A stretch of DNA of 64,000 nucleotides, taken from Tepidanaerobacteraceae bacterium. Lineage in GTDB: Bacteria > Bacillota > Thermosediminibacteria > Thermosediminibacterales > Tepidanaerobacteraceae. The position numbers and the translations under genes were made by a program. The notes beneath the pieces were generated by a model. That model was not told the DNA's origin. It made no database searches and saw only the letters and a program-made list of their open reading frames with translations. Positions within the stretch are counted from its first letter, which is position 1. Every line of letters begins with the position of its first letter. This document shows positions 19,928-30,032 of this stretch, one piece after another. Location of the stretch: contig JARRBK010000002.1 in assembly GCA_029982615.1 (NCBI GenBank), positions 23,637-87,636 of the forward strand, given 5' to 3'.

Positions 19928-20641
19928 TTATATTATTCCTTTTTCTCTCATACTAATATAAATCCCATTTCCTATTATAACATGATCTATTACATCGATT
20001 CCCAATAATTTGCCAGCATCCACCAATCTCTTTGTAATGGCCAGATCTTCACGGCTCGGAGTGGGATCTCCACTCGGATGGTTATGAACCAAAATTATAG
20101 AGGCGCTGCTTCTTCGTATAGCTGGTTTGAACACTTCACGGGGATGTACGATGGAAGAATTGAGGCTTCCCACAGATATTTCTTCTACCGAAATAACATG
20201 ATTTTTTATATTCAGCAATATAACTTTAAAATGCTCTTTTTCTAAGAATCTCATCTCTTCCATTAGCAAATGTTTTACATCAGCAGGTGTATTTATTATG
20301 ACAGGGTTTCGGCCTGAGTAAGATGAAATTCTGCGGCCCAGTTCTACAGCAGCTTTTATCTGAACAGACTTTGCAAGGCCTATGCCTCGTATCTTGGAAA
20401 GTTCTTCTATGCTGCAGTCAGCCACAAAAGCCAGCCCGGATTTTGTCCCATTCCCCTTTAATATTCTATGGGCCAGCATAAGAGCAGATTCAGAAGCTGT
20501 TCCAGTCCTTATCAAAACCGCCAACAATTCTGCATCGCTTAATACCTGCGCACCGTAACGCTCCATGCGTTCCCTCGGACGTTCTTCTTTGGGTAGATCT
20601 TTAATGGTCAAACTTTCCTCCACTTTATGATTTCCTCCCAA
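19928..20641 (-). CDS. radC: RadC family JAB-domain protein
   Basis: HNHPSGDPTPSREDLAITKRLVDAGKLLGI. Confidence 0.96.
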   Translation of the reverse strand: MGGNHKVEESLTIKDLPKEERPRERMERYGAQVLSDAELLAVLIRTGTASESALMLAHRILKGNGTKSGLAFVADCSIEELSKIRGIGLAKSVQIKAAVELGRRISSYSGRNPVIINTPADVKHLLMEEMRFLEKEHFKVILLNIKNHVISVEEISVGSLNSSIVHPREVFKPAIRRSSASIILVHNHPSGDPTPSREDLAITKRLVDAGKLLGIDVIDHVIIGNGIYISMREKGII

Positions 20642-20646
20642 AATAT

Positions 20647-21228
20647 TTAAAGTAATTCTATGCCAAATTTTAAAAGCATAGTGTTTAACTTAAATAGAGG
20701 CAGTCCTACAATATTATAATAACATCCTTCAATTTTCTCAATAAAAAGCGATCCCTTCCCCTGAATGCCATACGCCCCGGCTTTGTCAAAAGGTTCACCG
20801 GTATTAATATAATTTTTTATTTCTCTCGATGTAAGATTCTTAAACCTTACCCTGCTCTCTTCGTAATCCTTAATTTGCTTTCCCGACTCGGTATCGATAA
20901 GAGCCAAGCCTGTGTAAACATAATGCCATCGCCCGCTCAGAAGAGAAAGCATTTCTGCTGCCTGTTTACTGTCCTTGGGCTTCCCAAGAATTCGGCCATC
21001 TATGGCTACTATTGTGTCAGCACCCAGCACAAGGCTATCTTTATGCCGCATAGCCACGTTCATCGCTTTGCTTTCTGCCAGGTCTGCTGCAAGGATATGG
21101 GGCTGTGTGCTAGTGTCTATGTTTTCCTCCTCTGTGCTTGGCTCTACAGTAAAATCTATTCCGAGCTGAGATAAAAGAAATCTACGCCTAGGCGATGCTG
21201 ATGCGAGAATTAGCTTCTTGTTTATCAC
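20647..21228 (-). CDS. maf: Maf-like nucleotide pyrophosphatase
   Basis: LILASASPRRRFLLSQLGIDF, LGADTIVAIDGRILGKP. Confidence 0.96.
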   Translation of the reverse strand: MINKKLILASASPRRRFLLSQLGIDFTVEPSTEEENIDTSTQPHILAADLAESKAMNVAMRHKDSLVLGADTIVAIDGRILGKPKDSKQAAEMLSLLSGRWHYVYTGLALIDTESGKQIKDYEESRVRFKNLTSREIKNYINTGEPFDKAGAYGIQGKGSLFIEKIEGCYYNIVGLPLFKLNTMLLKFGIELL

Positions 21229-21244
21229 GTTTACCGCCTGCCTC

Positions 21245-21493
21245 CTACATGCGTTGATACAAAATTAGACCGACAATCAATCCTATTGCCGCCGCCAAGT
21301 TCAGCGTTATGTTAAAACCAAAAGTAATGGTTGCAATACCCAGATCTAGTGTTGCAGGTGAAAGGCCTATATTTTTCCCATACGCGAGAATCGGCAGATA
21401 TCGTTCAGTGATTTGTCCCAAAATGCCACCTATTATCATTCCAACCATTAAAATTATAATAAGCAATGTAGTACTACGATAACTTCGCCTCAT
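21245..21493 (-). CDS. DUF4321-like small membrane protein
   Basis: Two TM helices with GGILGQ...LDLGIATITFGFNITLNLA. Confidence 0.65.
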   Translation of the reverse strand: MRRSYRSTTLLIIILMVGMIIGGILGQITERYLPILAYGKNIGLSPATLDLGIATITFGFNITLNLAAAIGLIVGLILYQRM

Positions 21494-22028
21494 TCTTTAT
21501 TCTCTCCTTTCCCGGCAAATTGATTTTTAAAAGCGCAGCAAAAAGGTTTTTATATAAATAGGCAGCTGTAAAGCCTGTGAAAATACCGGTAAAAAGCCCA
21601 GTTACCATTAAAAACGGCAAATAAACATATAAGCCAAACGTTGAAAGCACAATGCATGCTACTGTTACCTGAGCAAAATTATGGGCAACCCCGCCGATAA
21701 TGCTAATACCTACCAGGCTAAAAACTTTCTTAAAATATTTATAAAACAATGCCATCATCAAAGTACTCAATATGGCTCCCGAGAGGCTATACAATAGACT
21801 CGCTGCAGAACCCGTCAGCCCAGCACCTATAAGGCACCTTAATATGTTTACCATCAAGCCTTCCTTTAAACCATATATCACTATGGCCAAAAGGGATATT
21901 ACATTGGCAAGGCCAAGCTTTGCACCGGGAATAGGAAAAGGAATTGGTATCATATTTTCTATGATATGAAGCACCAAACCACATGTCACAAGAAGGGAAA
22001 GAGATATCATTTTCCTGCGTTCTATCAA
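21474..22028 (-). CDS. Gx transporter / heptaprenyl diphosphate synthase component I family
   Basis: ENMIPIPFPIPGAKLGLANVISLLAI. Confidence 0.85.
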   Translation of the reverse strand: MIERRKMISLSLLVTCGLVLHIIENMIPIPFPIPGAKLGLANVISLLAIVIYGLKEGLMVNILRCLIGAGLTGSAASLLYSLSGAILSTLMMALFYKYFKKVFSLVGISIIGGVAHNFAQVTVACIVLSTFGLYVYLPFLMVTGLFTGIFTGFTAAYLYKNLFAALLKINLPGKERIKNEAKLS

Positions 22029-22053
22029 TAGTATTCATCCTTTATATTCCAGT

Positions 22054-22440
22054 TTAGAAACTCACGCCATCCAGCTGATCATTTGGAGTGCTCTCGCTTT
22101 GAATTTTAATCACGACCCTGTTAGGCAGGCATACTATCATTTGCCCGGGTCGGCTTATCCATCCCTGATGCATGCAATCTTTATCCGGGCACGGAGAATA
22201 AAGCATTCTCACCTTATCTCTATTTATTTCCACTATGCTTTCTCCCATGATTCCAGGGACTTTTAGCTGCAATATGGGACCGCCCTTGCCCAGGGATATC
22301 TTCTGAAAAAGACGACCGTTAATTTCTATAACAGCATATGTTCTTTCGCCGCCGAAAGTGTACATCTGAAAGCCTGTAAATATCAAAACTGCGCTGACGA
22401 TTATAAGCGCTATGAGTATCTTGTCTCCTTTTGTGAGCAT
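22054..22440 (-). CDS. NusG domain II-containing protein
   Basis: CPDKDCMHQGWISRPGQMIVCLPNRVVI. Confidence 0.85.
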   Translation of the reverse strand: MLTKGDKILIALIIVSAVLIFTGFQMYTFGGERTYAVIEINGRLFQKISLGKGGPILQLKVPGIMGESIVEINRDKVRMLYSPCPDKDCMHQGWISRPGQMIVCLPNRVVIKIQSESTPNDQLDGVSF

Positions 22441-22527
22441 CGAAATAACCCTGCCTGCTTTAATCTACACATAGTGTAACATTTTATTCCAATCAAAACA
22501 AGTGGAAAAATTGCCTAAGAAAAGTAT

Positions 22528-22571
22528 AAAAAAAGATTTTATGAAGCAATCTATAAAACTTCATAAAATCC
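22528..22571 (-). terminator. Terminator downstream of copZ-like gene
   Basis: GATTTTATGAAG...CTTCATAAAATC then TTTTTTT on the minus strand. Confidence 0.85.
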
Positions 22572-22603
22572 TGGTAAAGATTGTGGCTAAGATAAATTTA
22601 GAC

Positions 22604-22843
22604 TTATTCCTTAACATCATATCCTGCATCTTCAATGGCTTTTTTTATGTCATCCAGTTTTACTTTTGATGGATCAAAAGATACATCCACTTTACCATGG
22701 CTTACTTCGGCTTCCACTTTAAAAATACCAGGCAAAGCTCCCACTGAGGTCTCTACGGCTTTTTTACAATGGGCGCAGGACATGCCTTCCACCTTGAGCG
22801 TAATATCAGATCTGACCGACTCGTTGTTACAACAACTGCACAT
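22604..22843 (-). CDS. copZ: Heavy-metal-associated (CopZ-like) copper chaperone
   Basis: VEGMSCAHCKKAVETSV. Confidence 0.88.
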   Translation of the reverse strand: MCSCCNNESVRSDITLKVEGMSCAHCKKAVETSVGALPGIFKVEAEVSHGKVDVSFDPSKVKLDDIKKAIEDAGYDVKE

Positions 22844-22908
22844 TTTTCATTCCTCCAAACGTTTTAATATTGTGTTTAACAGCTCAGCTCTAAGTAAAGT
22901 TAAATTTA

Positions 22909-22927
22909 TATACTCTTTAGGGGTATA
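22909..22927. promoter_or_regulatory. CsoR-type operator candidate upstream of copZ
   Basis: TATACTC-N5-GGGTATA, same architecture as the site upstream of copA. Confidence 0.6.
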
Positions 22928-22968
22928 TTTATTTTAATTTAATTCTAAAAATAAGTCAAGCCGATTAA

Positions 22969-23021
22969 TGTTAACTTTATTATTATTTCTAGTTGACAAT
23001 TTGCCTGATCTGAGATATCAT
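22969..23021 (+). promoter_or_regulatory. Promoter TTGACA-N17-TATCAT overlapped by a BirA-type operator
   Basis: TGTTAAC (22969-22975) N16 GTTGACA (22992-22998); -35 at 22993-22998, -10 at 23016-23021; upstream of bioY. Confidence 0.65.
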
Positions 23022-23068
23022 TCTACTTGATTTCAGTCTAAATTACATTCAAAGGAGAGTAGATAATT

Positions 23069-23653
23069 ATGGGAAATCAAAATCAACCTTTCATTCAAAC
23101 CCGCGAAATTCCTTTTATAGGACTTTTCGCAGCCTTAACGGCAGTATTAAGTTACATTGAAATCCCGCTGCCAGTTGTACCGATAACAGCCCAGACTCTG
23201 GGAGTAATGCTGGCGGGAAGCTTGCTTTCCCCAATTCCTGCATTTCTCAGCATGGTTTTGTTTTTGCTTCTAGGAGTGATAGGCCTTCCCGTATATGCGG
23301 GCGGCGCCAGCGGCATAGGCACTATCTTCGGTCCCACAGGAGGCTTTCTGCTGAGCTGGCCGGTGGCGGTATTTGTGATGGCACATCTTATGAAAAGGTT
23401 CAAACCCAGCTTCAGGAATGTTTTTATAATTAACATCGTGGGTGGAATATTGGTTGTTTATGGTATAGGAGTACCGTATCTTGCCCGAATAGCTCATCTC
23501 AATTTTACTTCTGCGCTTACTGTCGGAGCATTGCCTTTTATACCGGGCGACTTGGCAAAAGCCTTTATTTCGACGACTGTCTCCCTTGCTATCAGAAAAG
23601 CAAACAAAAATTTCTTTGATGACTATAATCGCTGCGGCAAAAGTTATGAATAA
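23069..23653 (+). CDS. bioY: Biotin transporter BioY
   Basis: IPLPVVPITAQTLGVMLAG, GVIGLPVYAGGASGIGTIFGPTGGFLLSWP. Confidence 0.94.
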   Translation: MGNQNQPFIQTREIPFIGLFAALTAVLSYIEIPLPVVPITAQTLGVMLAGSLLSPIPAFLSMVLFLLLGVIGLPVYAGGASGIGTIFGPTGGFLLSWPVAVFVMAHLMKRFKPSFRNVFIINIVGGILVVYGIGVPYLARIAHLNFTSALTVGALPFIPGDLAKAFISTTVSLAIRKANKNFFDDYNRCGKSYE

Positions 23654-23673
23654 CAAGTTTTTGCCCCGGGCTA

Positions 23674-23702
23674 TTGCAAAAAATACATCCTAGGTATAAA
23701 AT
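23674..23702 (+). promoter_or_regulatory. Promoter candidate TTGCAA-N17-TAAAAT upstream of E1-like gene
   Basis: Hexamers with a 17-nt spacer. Confidence 0.4.
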
Positions 23703-23757
23703 AATGTAAAGTAAATCTATCTTTTTTATATATGTTTTTAAGAAGGGGGGAAGGTGA

Positions 23758-25221
23758 ATGATACTTCCCGCGGAAAAAAGTAACAGGTATTTGAGGCACA
23801 CAATAATGCCAGAAATTGGTGCTTCGGGCCAGACGAGGCTGCTGGAATCGCATATAGCTGTATTTGCCAGTTCAGCCCGCTGTGTGGCGCCTTTGCTGTA
23901 CTACTTGGTATCTTCCGGTTTAGGAAATATAAAATGTTTTATTGAAGGAATTGAAGGCATATCGCCCCTGGTGGAAAACTTGCGGGATTTAAATCCGGAT
24001 GTAAATATCATCGAAATGATTGAACTCTCAGATGCAGCGGAAGTATTTCATAATTGTTCTGGAAATACAGAAAAAAATACGTCTTGCCGTATAATTTTCG
24101 GTAATTACGATTTTATAAAAAATATTATTAAAAGTATAAACAATATAAACGATCGTTGCAAAACGCATTATGTTCCTACTATTATAGCCGCTGTAGAAAA
24201 CTGGCAGGGAATAATTCAGGCTGTCAAAAAACCCGAAAATACTTTTTTATTCAACAACACAGTTTCTGGGCATGCAATTATCTCAACAGCTCCCGCGAAC
24301 AAGCTGGCTGTGGGATATTTGTTCTCCTGCTGCCTTGCCGGTGCCCTTGCAGCCATTGAATCCATAAAACTGTGCCTTAATATAGGAAATTTCTTGGAAT
24401 GCCCGCTTTATTTTGATCTACTCACGATGAATTTTAAGAAGCTTAACGGCAATGACAATATCCCCAATGCACATCATCTTCCTTCTGAAGAAAAGCCGGA
24501 TGATATTCAAAACAAAATCCTTGACTCCAAGGTGCTCATCGTGGGCACCGGCGGTCTCGGCTCTCCTGCGGCTTACGCCCTATCTCTTTCCGGGGTGGGC
24601 AGTTTAGGATTGGTGGACAGCGACAGGGTGGAAATCAGCAACCTTAACCGTCAGATACTTCATTCCACTTCCCGCATAGGAACACCTAAAGTAAAATCTG
24701 CAGAAGTATTTATCCGAAAATTGAACCCTAACATAAATGTAATTACATACGAAACGCGCTTTACAAAATCCAATGCCATGCGAATAATAAGGGATTATGA
24801 TGTTATAATAGATGGAGTAGACAACCTCCCCACGCGATACCTTCTAAACGACTCGTGCTTTTTCGCTGAAAAAACGCTGGTCGAAGCCGGAGTGCTCAGG
24901 TTTGAAGGCCTGGGAATGACTTTGGTCCCCAAAAAAGGCCACTGTTACCGATGCATATTTCCCGAACCGCCGCCTGCCAACAGCATTCCGTCATGTTCAC
25001 AAGCCGGAATTCTTGGGCCTGTGCCCGGAGTGATGGGATTCATTGAAGCAGCAGAAGCCTTTAAATTGTTAGCTGGGATAGGTAAAACTTTACAGAGCCA
25101 GTTACTCATATTCGACGCATTAGACCTGGATTTTAGAATCACACAAGTTAAGCGAGATGAAAACTGTCCTCTTTGCGGCGAAATGCCTTCTATAAAAGAG
25201 CCTATAGAATATGAAATATAA
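23758..25221 (+). CDS. Tandem E1-like (ThiF/MoeB/HesA) protein: degenerate N-terminal domain plus intact C-terminal domain
   Basis: C-terminal half KVLIVGTGGLGSPAAYALSLSGVG...NLNRQILH...DGVDNLPTRYLLND...CYRC...CPLC; N-terminal half RYLRHTIMPEIGASGQTRLLESHIAVFASSARCVAPLLYYLVSSGLG lacks the nucleotide-binding glycines. Confidence 0.85.
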   Translation: MILPAEKSNRYLRHTIMPEIGASGQTRLLESHIAVFASSARCVAPLLYYLVSSGLGNIKCFIEGIEGISPLVENLRDLNPDVNIIEMIELSDAAEVFHNCSGNTEKNTSCRIIFGNYDFIKNIIKSINNINDRCKTHYVPTIIAAVENWQGIIQAVKKPENTFLFNNTVSGHAIISTAPANKLAVGYLFSCCLAGALAAIESIKLCLNIGNFLECPLYFDLLTMNFKKLNGNDNIPNAHHLPSEEKPDDIQNKILDSKVLIVGTGGLGSPAAYALSLSGVGSLGLVDSDRVEISNLNRQILHSTSRIGTPKVKSAEVFIRKLNPNINVITYETRFTKSNAMRIIRDYDVIIDGVDNLPTRYLLNDSCFFAEKTLVEAGVLRFEGLGMTLVPKKGHCYRCIFPEPPPANSIPSCSQAGILGPVPGVMGFIEAAEAFKLLAGIGKTLQSQLLIFDALDLDFRITQVKRDENCPLCGEMPSIKEPIEYEI

Positions 25222-25313
25222 AACCATTTAACGTCATTTACAGGCAGCGGTCTTTGATTTGCTTCACCTTTTAATAACCATTCGTTTTAATACTGTAAAA
25301 GGAGATGAGGTAA

Positions 25314-26255
25314 ATGAATAATAAATACAGCATTATCAATGATTCCATTCTCGATCTCATCGGTAAAACACCCATGGTAAAACTTTCCCGCCTTTCGCCG
25401 AAAGGAGGAGCCACCATTGTCGGAAAACTTGAGTCTTTCAATCCAGGCGGCAGTATCAAAGACCGAATAGCTCTTAATATGATAAACGATGCAGAGCAAA
25501 AGGGCATTTTAAAGCCGGGTTCCACGGTGATAGAGCCCACCAGCGGTAATACAGGAATAGGTCTTGCCATGGTTTGTGCAGTGAAAGGTTATAAACTTTT
25601 GCTAGTAATGCCGTCTTCCATGAGCGTAGAACGCAGGAAGCTTCTAAAATCTTACGGAGCCGATTTTGTTCTGACGCCTCCGGAGTTGGGAATGAAAGGT
25701 GCTGTTGATAAGGCGATGGAACTCGTAAGCCAGAACAAAGATTATTTTATGCCCCAGCAATTTGAAAACCCTGCAAACCCTGCAATACACGAAAAAACCA
25801 CTGCAATGGAAATTCTTGAACAGACCGGTGGCAAAATCAACGCCTTTGTAGCCGGAGTTGGAACCGGCGGAACTTTAACTGGGGTCGGCAGGGTTTTGAA
25901 AAAACAAATTCCGGGCATTAGAGTTATCGCTGTAGAACCTGCCGATTCTCCAGTGCTTTCCGGAGGAAGGCCGGGCTCTCACAAGATTCAGGGAATAGGG
26001 GCTGGTTTTGTACCTAAGGTTATGGATGTATCGTTGGTGGATGAAATAATTACCGTCGAAAGCGAAGATGCTTATGAGACAGTCCGGAAACTTGCCGTAG
26101 CAGAAGGCATACTGTCTGGTATATCCTCCGGCGCTGCGGTTTTCGCTGCACAAAAAGTTGCAAAAGCTTTTAAGCCCGGTGATACAGTAGTGGCGATACT
26201 GCCTGATACTGGTGAAAGATATTTGAGTGTAGATGGTTTATTCTTTGAAGAATGA
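25314..26255 (+). CDS. cysK: Cysteine synthase (O-acetylserine sulfhydrylase family)
   Basis: LIGKTPMVKLSRLSPK, FNPGGSIKDRIALNMI, EPTSGNTGIGLAMV. Confidence 0.95.
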   Translation: MNNKYSIINDSILDLIGKTPMVKLSRLSPKGGATIVGKLESFNPGGSIKDRIALNMINDAEQKGILKPGSTVIEPTSGNTGIGLAMVCAVKGYKLLLVMPSSMSVERRKLLKSYGADFVLTPPELGMKGAVDKAMELVSQNKDYFMPQQFENPANPAIHEKTTAMEILEQTGGKINAFVAGVGTGGTLTGVGRVLKKQIPGIRVIAVEPADSPVLSGGRPGSHKIQGIGAGFVPKVMDVSLVDEIITVESEDAYETVRKLAVAEGILSGISSGAAVFAAQKVAKAFKPGDTVVAILPDTGERYLSVDGLFFEE

Positions 26256-26257
26256 AG

Positions 26258-28249
26258 TTATGATGCCTCCTCACCGCCCTGGTTTGTTCCAAGAAACTGG
26301 CTGTTATAGAGGTCGGCATAAAATCCTCCTCTTGCCAGAAGTTCCTTATGGTTGCCTTGTTCTATGATTCTGCCATGATTCATTACTAGTATCAAATCTG
26401 CATCGCGGATTGTGGAGAGCCTGTGGGCAATCACAAAACTCGTCCTGCCTTTCATAAGATTTGACATGGCTTTTTGTATTAATATCTCTGTCCGCGTGTC
26501 AATATTGCTCGTAGCTTCATCAAGAATAAGCATTGGTGGATCGGCTAGTATTGCCCGCGCAATAGTCAAAAGTTGTTTCTGCCCCTGTGAAATATTTGAG
26601 GCTTCCTCATTGATAATAGTGTTATAACCCTCGGGAAGGGTTCTGATAAAGTGATCCGCGTGAGCCGCTTTTGCCGCGCGGATTACTTCTTCTTCTGTAG
26701 CATCTTCCCGTCCATAAGCAATATTATCCATTATTGAGCCATTAAAAAGCCAGGTATCCTGAAGCACCATACCAAACATCCTGCGCAAATCCCCTCTTTT
26801 TAAGTCTCTAATATCAATTCCGTCAATAGTAATTTTTCCCTTATTGACCTCATAAAAACGCATCAATAGGTTGACAAGCGTAGTTTTACCCGCGCCGGTC
26901 GGCCCCACAATAGCAACGGTTTGACCTGGTTTTACACAAATATTCAAATCCTCGATAAGAGGTACACCACGCTTATAACTAAAGCTAACATGCTCAAAGT
27001 TTACCTCTCCTTCTGGAAAATTAATAACGACTGCATCCTCCTTTTCTGGAATTTCCTCCACCTCATCCAGAACTTCGAAAACGCGTTCCGCTGAAGCAAC
27101 GGTGGATTGAATAATATTTGCAATATTAGCCGTCTGTACAATAGGCTGCGTGAACTGCCTCATATACTGTATAAACGCCTGAATATCTCCTATTTCTATT
27201 TTGCTTTTCGCCACCATGAAGCCGCCGACCACGCAGACGATAACATACCCAATATTGCTCACAAAATTCAGAGCCGGGAAAATAACTCCAGACATAAACT
27301 GAGCCTTCCAGCCGGCAGTAAAAAGTTTTTCGTTCACCTCTTTAAACTTTCTAATGGAATCCTCTTCATGTCCGAAGGCTTTTACCACTTTGTGACCGGT
27401 ATACATTTCCTCCACATGGCCATTCAATATTCCCAGCACCTTCTGTTGTTCCGCAAAAAACTTCTGCGAATTTTTGGCTATCATCGAAGTAATAAATGCA
27501 CTGGCAGGCAGAGTAAAAAGCGCAATCAACGTCATCAAGGGGCTTATTGAAAGCATCATTATCAATATGCCTATAATAGTAACCACAGAAGTTATCAATT
27601 GAGTTAAGCTCTGCTGCAATGTTGTGGCAATATTATCCATGTCGTTGGTCACACGGCTTAAAATTTCTCCATGAGTACGGGTATCAAAATACCTCAGCGG
27701 CAGCCGGTCAAGTTTTTCCTTAACATCGTTACGCATTTTGAACACGGTCTTCTGCGAAACATCCGCCATTATATAAGACATTAAAAAACTTAATAATGCA
27801 CTAATAACATACAATCCCACCAATAAAATCAATATACGGCCGATATAGGGAAAATCTATCCTCGGAACCGGCTGCCGTTTCAACTTTTCTATGAATGATG
27901 CTGGCATTTTCTTCTGGATCGCCAGCATCAACTGGTAATAGTACGTATATCTTGCGAGAATTCCTTCACCGAGCTTGGTGGTAGCCTTGCCCATTATTTT
28001 TGGGCCTGAAATCCCAAAAACCGTACTGGCAATCGCCAGTAAAAACACCGTTAAAAAACGAATTTTCTCGGGTTTTAAATATTCTATAAGGCGCATCAGC
28101 GTGCCTTTAAAATCTTTAGCCTTCTGGACCGGCATGCCGATTCCCGGCCCTCTGCCGAAATATCTTCCTGGCCTTGTAGCACCAGCCCGTAGACTGGATT
28201 GTCCAGATGACGGCATTTCATTTTCCGGTTCCCGCCTATTATCGCTCAT
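26258..28249 (-). CDS. ABC exporter, fused permease/ATPase
   Basis: GPTGAGKTTLVNLLMRFYEV Walker A; NISQGQKQLLTIARAIL. Confidence 0.95.
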   Translation of the reverse strand: MSDNRREPENEMPSSGQSSLRAGATRPGRYFGRGPGIGMPVQKAKDFKGTLMRLIEYLKPEKIRFLTVFLLAIASTVFGISGPKIMGKATTKLGEGILARYTYYYQLMLAIQKKMPASFIEKLKRQPVPRIDFPYIGRILILLVGLYVISALLSFLMSYIMADVSQKTVFKMRNDVKEKLDRLPLRYFDTRTHGEILSRVTNDMDNIATTLQQSLTQLITSVVTIIGILIMMLSISPLMTLIALFTLPASAFITSMIAKNSQKFFAEQQKVLGILNGHVEEMYTGHKVVKAFGHEEDSIRKFKEVNEKLFTAGWKAQFMSGVIFPALNFVSNIGYVIVCVVGGFMVAKSKIEIGDIQAFIQYMRQFTQPIVQTANIANIIQSTVASAERVFEVLDEVEEIPEKEDAVVINFPEGEVNFEHVSFSYKRGVPLIEDLNICVKPGQTVAIVGPTGAGKTTLVNLLMRFYEVNKGKITIDGIDIRDLKRGDLRRMFGMVLQDTWLFNGSIMDNIAYGREDATEEEVIRAAKAAHADHFIRTLPEGYNTIINEEASNISQGQKQLLTIARAILADPPMLILDEATSNIDTRTEILIQKAMSNLMKGRTSFVIAHRLSTIRDADLILVMNHGRIIEQGNHKELLARGGFYADLYNSQFLGTNQGGEEAS

Positions 28250-29973
28250 GCTGTTTCCTCCTCCGACAGCTGCGAGTAAACTAGCTCACGATAAACATCA
28301 CAGTTTTCCATAAGCGTTTTATGTTTCCCGACTCCTGCTACTTTCCCTTCATCCAAAACAACGATTTTGTCTGCATCCATTACCGTGCTGACGCGTTGCG
28401 TAACAATAATCAAAGTGGCATCTCTCGTTTCCCTTTTAAGGGCTGCCCGCAGGCGTGCATCCGTTTTATAGTCAAGTGCGGAAAAGCTTTCGTCAAAAAT
28501 GTAGATTTGCGGCTTTCTGACCAAAGCGCGTGCAATAGAAAGGCGCTGTTTTTGACCGCCCGATAAATTGGTGCCACCTTGAGAAACTTCAGCATTATAA
28601 CCTTCCTTCATATCACAAATAAATTCGCTGGCCTGAGCAACTTCAGCTGCATGCCTCACTTCTTCATCCGTAGCGTCTTTCTTGCCGTATCTAATGTTAT
28701 CAGCAATAGTGCCCGTAAAAAGAACGGGAGATTGAGGCACGAGAGCGATTCTGGCCCTTAATTCTTTTTGTTTCATATCCCTGACATCCACTCCATCTAT
28801 CATAACACTTCCGCTGTCTGCGTCATAAAAACGGGGAATAAGATTTACCAATGTGGATTTCCCAGAACCTGTGCCTCCAATAATTGCTGTCGTTTCACCT
28901 GGGTTTGCTGTAAAGGAAATATTGCTGAGAACTGGTTGCTCTGCTCCGGGATAACTAAACGTAACATTTTTAAATTCCACTAAACCCTTTTTTTCATCAG
29001 GCTTTTTAGGATGCTTTGGATCATTTATCTCTGGAGTCATATCAAGCACCTCGTTAATCCTCGCTGCAGAAGCCTGGGCCCGGGGAATCATAACAAACAT
29101 GATGGAAACCATAATCAGCGAAAACATTATCTGCATTGCATATTGAAGAAAAGCCATCATATCCCCCAATTCCAGTTTGCCTAGATCTATGCGCAGGCCG
29201 GCGAACCAAATGATTGAAACAGACGTCAAATTCATAAACAGCATCATCAACGGCTGTATAGCAGCCATTATTTTATTTGCCTTTATTGCAGTCTGCGTCA
29301 AATCACTGTTTGCTTCTATAAATCTTCTCTTCTCGCTATACTGCCGGTTAAATGCCCGGATCACTCGAATGCCTGTGAGATTTTCGCGAAGAATGAGATT
29401 CACTTTATCCAGCTTTTTCTGTAACGCCTGAAAAATGGGGACTATAATGCTTGCAAAAAAACCGATTACTGCCATGAGTATAGGCAGGACAACGGCCAAA
29501 ATTATAGTGAGCATTTTGTCTTTTGACATTGCCATTATTATGCCGCCGATACACATAATCGGCGCGTATATCATAAAGCGCATCATCATTACCAGTACCG
29601 TCTGAATTTGCATAATATCGTTTGTCGTCCTAGTAATCAGCGATGCAGTGCCGATTCTGTCAAACTCATGGAGAGAATAACTTTCCACTCTGGAAAAAAC
29701 CATGTTTCTAAGGTCTCTTCCGAAACCCACCGCAGTAATAGAGGATAACAAGCTTCCTAAAATAGCACATAAAGAGCTTGCCAATGCTACAAGAAGCATA
29801 TATTTACCGTATCTCAAAATATAAGATGTATTTCCTTTCATCATTCCGTTGTTTACAATATCCGACATTAAAGTCGGCAGGTAAAGCTCTGCCATAGCCT
29901 GGCCAAACATAAATATTAAAATAAATGTTATCAGCCCAATATAAGGTCTTAAAAATTTGAATAACTTCAACAT
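28246..29973 (-). CDS. ABC exporter, fused permease/ATPase (partner half)
   Basis: GGTGSGKSTLVNLIPRFYD; NLSGGQKQRLSIARALV; start revised to MLKLFKFLRP. Confidence 0.94.
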   Translation of the reverse strand: MLKLFKFLRPYIGLITFILIFMFGQAMAELYLPTLMSDIVNNGMMKGNTSYILRYGKYMLLVALASSLCAILGSLLSSITAVGFGRDLRNMVFSRVESYSLHEFDRIGTASLITRTTNDIMQIQTVLVMMMRFMIYAPIMCIGGIIMAMSKDKMLTIILAVVLPILMAVIGFFASIIVPIFQALQKKLDKVNLILRENLTGIRVIRAFNRQYSEKRRFIEANSDLTQTAIKANKIMAAIQPLMMLFMNLTSVSIIWFAGLRIDLGKLELGDMMAFLQYAMQIMFSLIMVSIMFVMIPRAQASAARINEVLDMTPEINDPKHPKKPDEKKGLVEFKNVTFSYPGAEQPVLSNISFTANPGETTAIIGGTGSGKSTLVNLIPRFYDADSGSVMIDGVDVRDMKQKELRARIALVPQSPVLFTGTIADNIRYGKKDATDEEVRHAAEVAQASEFICDMKEGYNAEVSQGGTNLSGGQKQRLSIARALVRKPQIYIFDESFSALDYKTDARLRAALKRETRDATLIIVTQRVSTVMDADKIVVLDEGKVAGVGKHKTLMENCDVYRELVYSQLSEEETA

Positions 29974-30032
29974 AATGTTTTTCTCATCCCCAGTCGGCAT
30001 AGCTGTCAGAAATATGCACAAAATCCATATGC

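Follow-up and report, generated by a model that had tools for sequence, protein, structure and literature searches.

The 487-codon single open reading frame at positions 23758–25221 (+ strand) of the window, the 64,000-nucleotide stretch of DNA analysed here, encodes two E1-like domains with complementary sets of active-site residues, and we consider it probable that the product works as a single-chain, obligately asymmetric MoeB-type E1 that charges MoaD/ThiS-like carriers for the pterin cofactor of aldehyde:ferredoxin oxidoreductases (AORs). In the mechanism that we propose, the N-terminal domain would be an E1 fold without catalytic activity that provides the dimer interface in cis and lends Arg13 in trans to the ATP site of its C-terminal partner, which would hold the complete cis site (Gly266, Arg298, Lys311, and Asp355) together with the zinc cysteines, giving one adenylation site per molecule. 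The Gly-Gly C terminus of the carriers would be adenylated at this site, and the adenylated carriers would then take up sulfur for the tungsten/molybdenum pterin cofactor of the AORs. The most likely origin of the protein is a tandem duplication of a MoeB gene, with complementary losses in the two copies and then their fusion, presumably in that order.

The first-pass annotation had described two E1-like repeats in the protein, a description borne out by the ThiF and NCBIfam profiles, which match each half, and by a direct BLASTP match between the halves (E = 9e-5). The chain is divided as follows:

23758..24438, + strand: inactive (pseudo) E1 domain, the N-half, residues 1–227 (ThiF, UbaA, and MoeB profiles)
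24439..24498, + strand: inter-domain linker, residues 228–247 (alignment and domain boundaries)
24499..25218, + strand: active MoeB/ThiF-type adenylation domain, the C-half, residues 248–487 (Pfam ThiF, 3.3e-74)

Against Pfam ThiF the whole protein scores 278.5 bits (curated cut-off 28.1), and each half also passes alone, the N-half at 1.8e-8. NCBIfam models of the MoeB/UbaA type match the N-half at 8e-16, 5e-14, and 1e-11, with UbaA (4.7e-14, residues 3–232) and MoeB (1.4e-11) spanning nearly all of it. For the C-half, the best solved relatives in the PDB are E. coli ThiF (2e-47) and MoeB (3e-46). The NCBIfam subfamily model PRK05690 is passed (270.7 bits, cut-off 266 bits), and the MoeB equivalog cut-offs are missed (TIGR02355, 206 versus 376.6 bits; PRK08762, 358 versus 449 bits); the ThiF score, the cis site, and two CxxC pairs together suggest that the protein belongs among the MoeB/ThiF-type E1s. 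No further Pfam domain was found, and the 487 residues leave no space for a catalytic-Cys or a ubiquitin-fold domain. In relatives, the aligned linkers are roughly 12–35 residues long. No RNA element reached the gathering threshold around the gene (positions 20000–30000 of the window).

For the residue comparison, 28 N-halves, 28 C-halves, and 16 plain MoeBs were aligned, with residue equivalences taken from alignments to Uba4 and MoeB chains. The adenylation site of Uba4 takes Gly45, Arg77, Lys90, and Asp134 from one subunit and Arg18 from the other, and the R18A mutation strongly reduces adenylation (PMC7527816). In the fusion, these residues are distributed over the two halves:

23785..23796, + strand: RYLR motif with Arg10 and Arg13, both conserved in all 28 N-halves and all 16 plain MoeBs, missing from all 28 C-halves
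24544..24561, + strand: GTGGLG nucleotide loop, residues 263–268, with Gly263, Gly265, Gly266, and Gly268 each in 28/28 C-halves
24649..24651, + strand: Arg298 (Uba4 Arg77, MoeB Arg73), in 28/28 C-halves and 0/28 N-halves
24688..24690, + strand: Lys311 (Uba4 Lys90, MoeB Lys86), in 28/28 C-halves, a gap in 28/28 N-halves
24820..24822, + strand: Asp355 (Uba4 Asp134, MoeB Asp130), in 28/28 C-halves, Asp in 3/28 N-halves
24943..24954, + strand: first CxxC pair, Cys396 and Cys399, zinc site, in 27/28 C-halves, with a gap in the other row
24994..24996, + strand: Cys413, at the crossover-loop Cys position of MoeB/ThiF, in 26/28 C-halves
25165..25176, + strand: second CxxC pair, Cys470 and Cys473, zinc site, in 27/28 C-halves, absent from all N-halves

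Arg13 aligns with Uba4 Arg18 and with Arg14 of E. coli MoeB; all 28 C-halves have a deletion of the segment that would bear it, and the N-terminal RYxRQ helix is missing there. Gly266 corresponds to Uba4 Gly45, and a Gly stands at this position in 1/28 N-halves. The loss is thus reciprocal: the N-halves keep the trans Arg and have lost almost all of the nucleotide site, and the C-halves show the reverse. The motifs listed earlier for the C-half (GTGGLGS, NLNRQ, DGVDN, and two CxxC pairs) are all present. The companion statement, that the N-half has lost its motifs, holds for the nucleotide-site and Cys motifs but not for RYxRH, which the N-half keeps and the C-half lacks. Given the reciprocal loss, we predict an obligate pseudo-dimer whose single active site draws on residues of both halves. 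Such a split is what would be expected of an obligate asymmetric dimer and would be hard to explain by decay; a symmetric homodimer with two equivalent sites is not predicted, the site appearing to be kept by one of the two linked domains.

The AlphaFold model, computed with 27 family members in the alignment, has a pLDDT of 84.9 and a pTM of 0.90 (16 sequences gave a weaker model, pLDDT 72.5). In Foldseek, the model matches single chains of UBA1, UBA6, and UBA7 across ∼600 columns with TMq 0.58–0.65 at a large rmsd of 7–12 Å, and single-domain ThiF/MoeB with TMq 0.43–0.44. The predicted fold is that of an E1 pseudo-dimer, and profiles and model both point to an inactive and an active adenylation domain arranged in this way; the proposal that the N-half is an E1 fold, which could have failed here, withstood both the profiles and the AlphaFold/Foldseek comparison. 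It should be noted that residues 1–15, including Arg13, have low pLDDT (about 45–53), so that the predicted contact between Arg13 and the ATP site rests on homology.

The fusion is present in about 34 Bacillota genomes (the exact number depends on overlaps between genome sets) and is not a local accident. In a search of relatives, 16 genomes from two families of the window's order have the full-length fusion, and six genomes of the window's own family lack it. A GTDB scan with the N-half adds Thermosediminibacter, Thermovorax, Fervidicola, Geosporobacter, Sedimentibacter, Sporomusa, Acetobacterium, and several assembled genomes. Among 399 evenly drawn genomes of the phylum, 15 carry the fusion, with scores above 142 bits as against at most 88 bits for plain MoeBs. 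In the phylogeny, each half forms a single clade (all N-halves, support 100/99; 27 fused N-halves, 100/100; 27 fused C-halves, 100/100), and a single origin of the fusion is therefore favoured. The halves are separate genes with a 4 bp overlap and the same division of motifs in one genome (G025), whose position relative to the fused C-halves has a support of 72/70; this two-gene form may be a pre-fusion stage or a product of fission. In close pairs, dN/dS is 0.2–0.4 for the N-half and 0.06–0.12 for the C-half; the N-half is thus under purifying selection, less strongly constrained than the C-half. The possibility, raised in the first-pass annotation, of a fusion unique to this genome and decaying is rejected in view of the conservation across genomes and the dN/dS values.

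What the enzyme would do is suggested by its surroundings and by the genes that accompany it. Its immediate neighbours in the window are:

23069..23653, + strand: BioY-like membrane protein, upstream (named from sequence alone)
25314..26255, + strand: cysteine-synthase-like PLP enzyme of the cysK type, downstream (Pfam PALP, 6.4e-84)

The BioY-like neighbour is common to most fusion loci of both families, and we claim no role for it in the system. The cysK-type gene lies on the same strand 92 bp past the fusion's stop codon and is found in the same place in 14 of 16 fusion loci; in the window's genome, the fusion gene adjoins cysK and not a carrier gene. All four carrier genes of this genome adjoin AOR genes. 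Three of the four are confirmed as ThiS-family by Pfam, and the fourth (C55:7658-7849) is a genome search match whose translation ends in Gly-Gly. In another genome (G385), an AOR gene cluster ends with the fusion. AOR genes occur in 14/16 fusion genomes and in G025 as against 0/6 relatives without the fusion, and MoaC in 13/16 fusion genomes and in G025 as against 0/6; the two fusion genomes without AOR matches (G004 and G021) are incomplete drafts. Few independent gains and losses underlie this co-occurrence, which is support rather than proof. The context thus points to activation of MoaD-type carriers for the tungsten/molybdenum cofactor. In G005, an AOR gene is split over two frames (L164 4223-5954), which points to a frameshift, a recoded stop, or an error in the sequence.

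A search of the window's genome (assembly 68.5% complete) gave no ThiF-family gene besides the fusion, and in four nearly complete genomes of the order (G013, G014, G015, and G018) no second ThiF-family E1 was found. For Thermococcus kodakarensis, it has been proposed that one MoeB-type E1 serves several carriers and AORs (PMC11323500). Outside the window's order, several fusion genomes hold other ThiF-family E1s, and the fusion's job there may therefore differ. MoaE was not found in any of 23 genomes (22 of the order and G025), most of which have MoaC, MoaD-like carriers, and AORs; the missing MoaE agrees with what has been remarked of acetogens (PMC5039349). A thiamine route was also considered and rejected: the ThiG profile gives weak partial matches in every genome, with or without the fusion, and no ThiG was recognised. 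Two further E1 arrangements were observed. G016 and G017 have a second ThiF-type gene (L170 6307-10159), which in G016 adjoins a MoaD-like carrier, a radical-SAM-like gene, and an AOR, and G033 has a 625-residue ThiS-E1-rhodanese fusion (L054 6974-8851).

In distant relatives, an IscU/NifU_N protein is encoded directly before the fusion gene (six loci) or fused to the fusion's N terminus (five loci), and in all of these adjacent and fused forms the first cluster-ligand Cys is replaced by Asp (NxxDGD):

L103 3628-3996: Asp-type IscU adjacent to the fusion
L105 3616-4029: Asp-type IscU adjacent to the fusion
L107 3633-4004: Asp-type IscU adjacent to the fusion
L108 3605-3973: Asp-type IscU adjacent to the fusion
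L110 3600-3968: Asp-type IscU adjacent to the fusion
L111 59-427: Asp-type IscU adjacent to the fusion
L113, L114, L115, L116, and L147: Asp-type IscU fused at the N terminus of the fusion

Five Thermosediminibacteraceae genomes (L179-L183) encode an Asp-type IscU away from the E1 gene, and four of the five (G013, G015, G016, and G019) also have a Cys-type IscU beside iscS-like and mnmA-like genes. The Asp-type IscU may hand sulfur to the carrier.

The downstream cysK gene suggests another reading, in which a carrier charged by the fusion supplies sulfur to the neighbouring cysteine synthase in a cysteine/sulfide pathway like CysO-CysM-Mec. Operons of E1, JAB, and cysteine-synthase genes offer a parallel (Iyer et al., 2006; PMC1779556), cysteine-synthase-like genes stand near the fusion in other Bacillota loci as well, and the adjacent or fused IscU-like gene of the distant relatives would fit such a pathway. 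The cysK locus, however, has no carrier gene, the carriers adjoin AORs instead, and it is AOR and MoaC that track the fusion. Moreover, 13 of 14 genomes have no JAB/Mec-type protease above the Pfam cut-off (the exception being one match in G019), and the weak JAB matches are RadC-sized reading frames at the radC locus. On this evidence we regard the cysteine/sulfide pathway as unlikely.

Still less likely is an E1 of a ubiquitin-like protein-conjugation system whose pseudo-domain recruits a conjugation partner. The order of inactive and active domains, as in UBA1 and BilD, and the Foldseek matches to UBA1 would favour it, but the protein offers neither a catalytic-Cys nor a ubiquitin-fold domain, no E2-like gene was recognised in the neighbourhoods, and the PADLOC E1-E2 and BilD models match just the generic adenylation region of the C-half. 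That the N-half is a decaying, functionless remnant of a duplication is the least probable reading, and very improbable in our judgement: the N-half does evolve faster than the C-half and has lost all nucleotide-site motifs, but its dN/dS is well below 1, its frames are open over their full length, the 28 N-half rows share 12 invariant columns that include Arg10 and Arg13, and the C-half has deleted the very Arg segment required for working alone.

The fusion family bears on the unanswered question of how the asymmetric E1 of ubiquitin signalling evolved from a symmetric ancestor of the MoeB type. It appears to be a parallel run of this change within simple metabolism, of which living genomes still offer the homodimeric, the split, and the fused form, and the ranking of the profiles suggests that the fusion arose independently of UBA1 and BilD. 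We lean, by a little, toward the broader claim that Bacillota possess a single-chain active/dead E1 in a sulfur-carrier pathway, independent of the eukaryotic and Bil enzymes, with its two-gene stage extant and an IscU-like sulfur scaffold joined to it in a derived lineage; if so, one could reconstruct and test how a symmetric MoeB homodimer turned into an asymmetric E1. The family is also a lead on the unexplained missing MoaE in many tungsten- or molybdenum-using anaerobes. We found no description of a tandem ThiF or of a NifU-MoeB fusion in the open-access literature, and the MoeB-type setting in metabolism, the form with two separate genes, the clean complementarity of the losses, and the IscU/NifU-like association appear to be undescribed.

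Bacterial E1s that pair an inactive with an active domain are already known: BilD of the Bil antiphage system has an N-terminal inactive and a C-terminal active adenylation domain (PMC11354881). The fusion has the same domain order but, unlike BilD, no inserted Cys domain and no defence operon: the BilD model covers just residues 245–379 of 487 (E = 1.8e-9), leaving the N-half unmatched, and the neighbours are BioY-like and cysteine-synthase genes in place of bilABCD. Membership of a BilD or E1-E2 defence system was rejected, since only the generic adenylation region of the C-half matches. The archaeal SAMP-activating E1 UbaA is among the strongest profile matches for both halves; UbaA, unlike the fusion, is single-domain, and the fusion scores 310 bits against a UbaA cut-off of 450. 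With E. coli MoeB/ThiF and Uba4, the fusion has in common the full cis site and zinc cysteines of the C-half and a trans Arg predicted to come from a neighbouring domain. Those homodimers have two symmetric sites, whereas the fusion has one chain with one predicted site, an active half from which the Arg helix is deleted, and no rhodanese domain.

With UBA1, UBA6, and UBA7, and with SAE1-UBA2 and NAE1-UBA3, the fusion shares an inactive followed by an active adenylation domain in a predicted pseudo-dimer. In UBA1-type E1s as, by prediction, in the fusion, an Arg of the inactive half reaches the ATP site. The inactive domain of human UBA1 contains Arg57. This Arg stands with Arg515 at the ATP site (PMC12355090). 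The parallel with eukaryotic E1s drawn in the first-pass annotation is thus upheld by the profiles, the reciprocal loss in 28/28 sequences, the AlphaFold/Foldseek results, and the spread over ∼34 genomes. Unlike the UBA1-type enzymes, the fusion is closest in sequence to MoeB/UbaA and lies in a sulfur-carrier context; what it shares with ubiquitin E1s is the adenylation pseudo-dimer alone, and not the catalytic-cysteine half-domains or the ubiquitin-fold domain.
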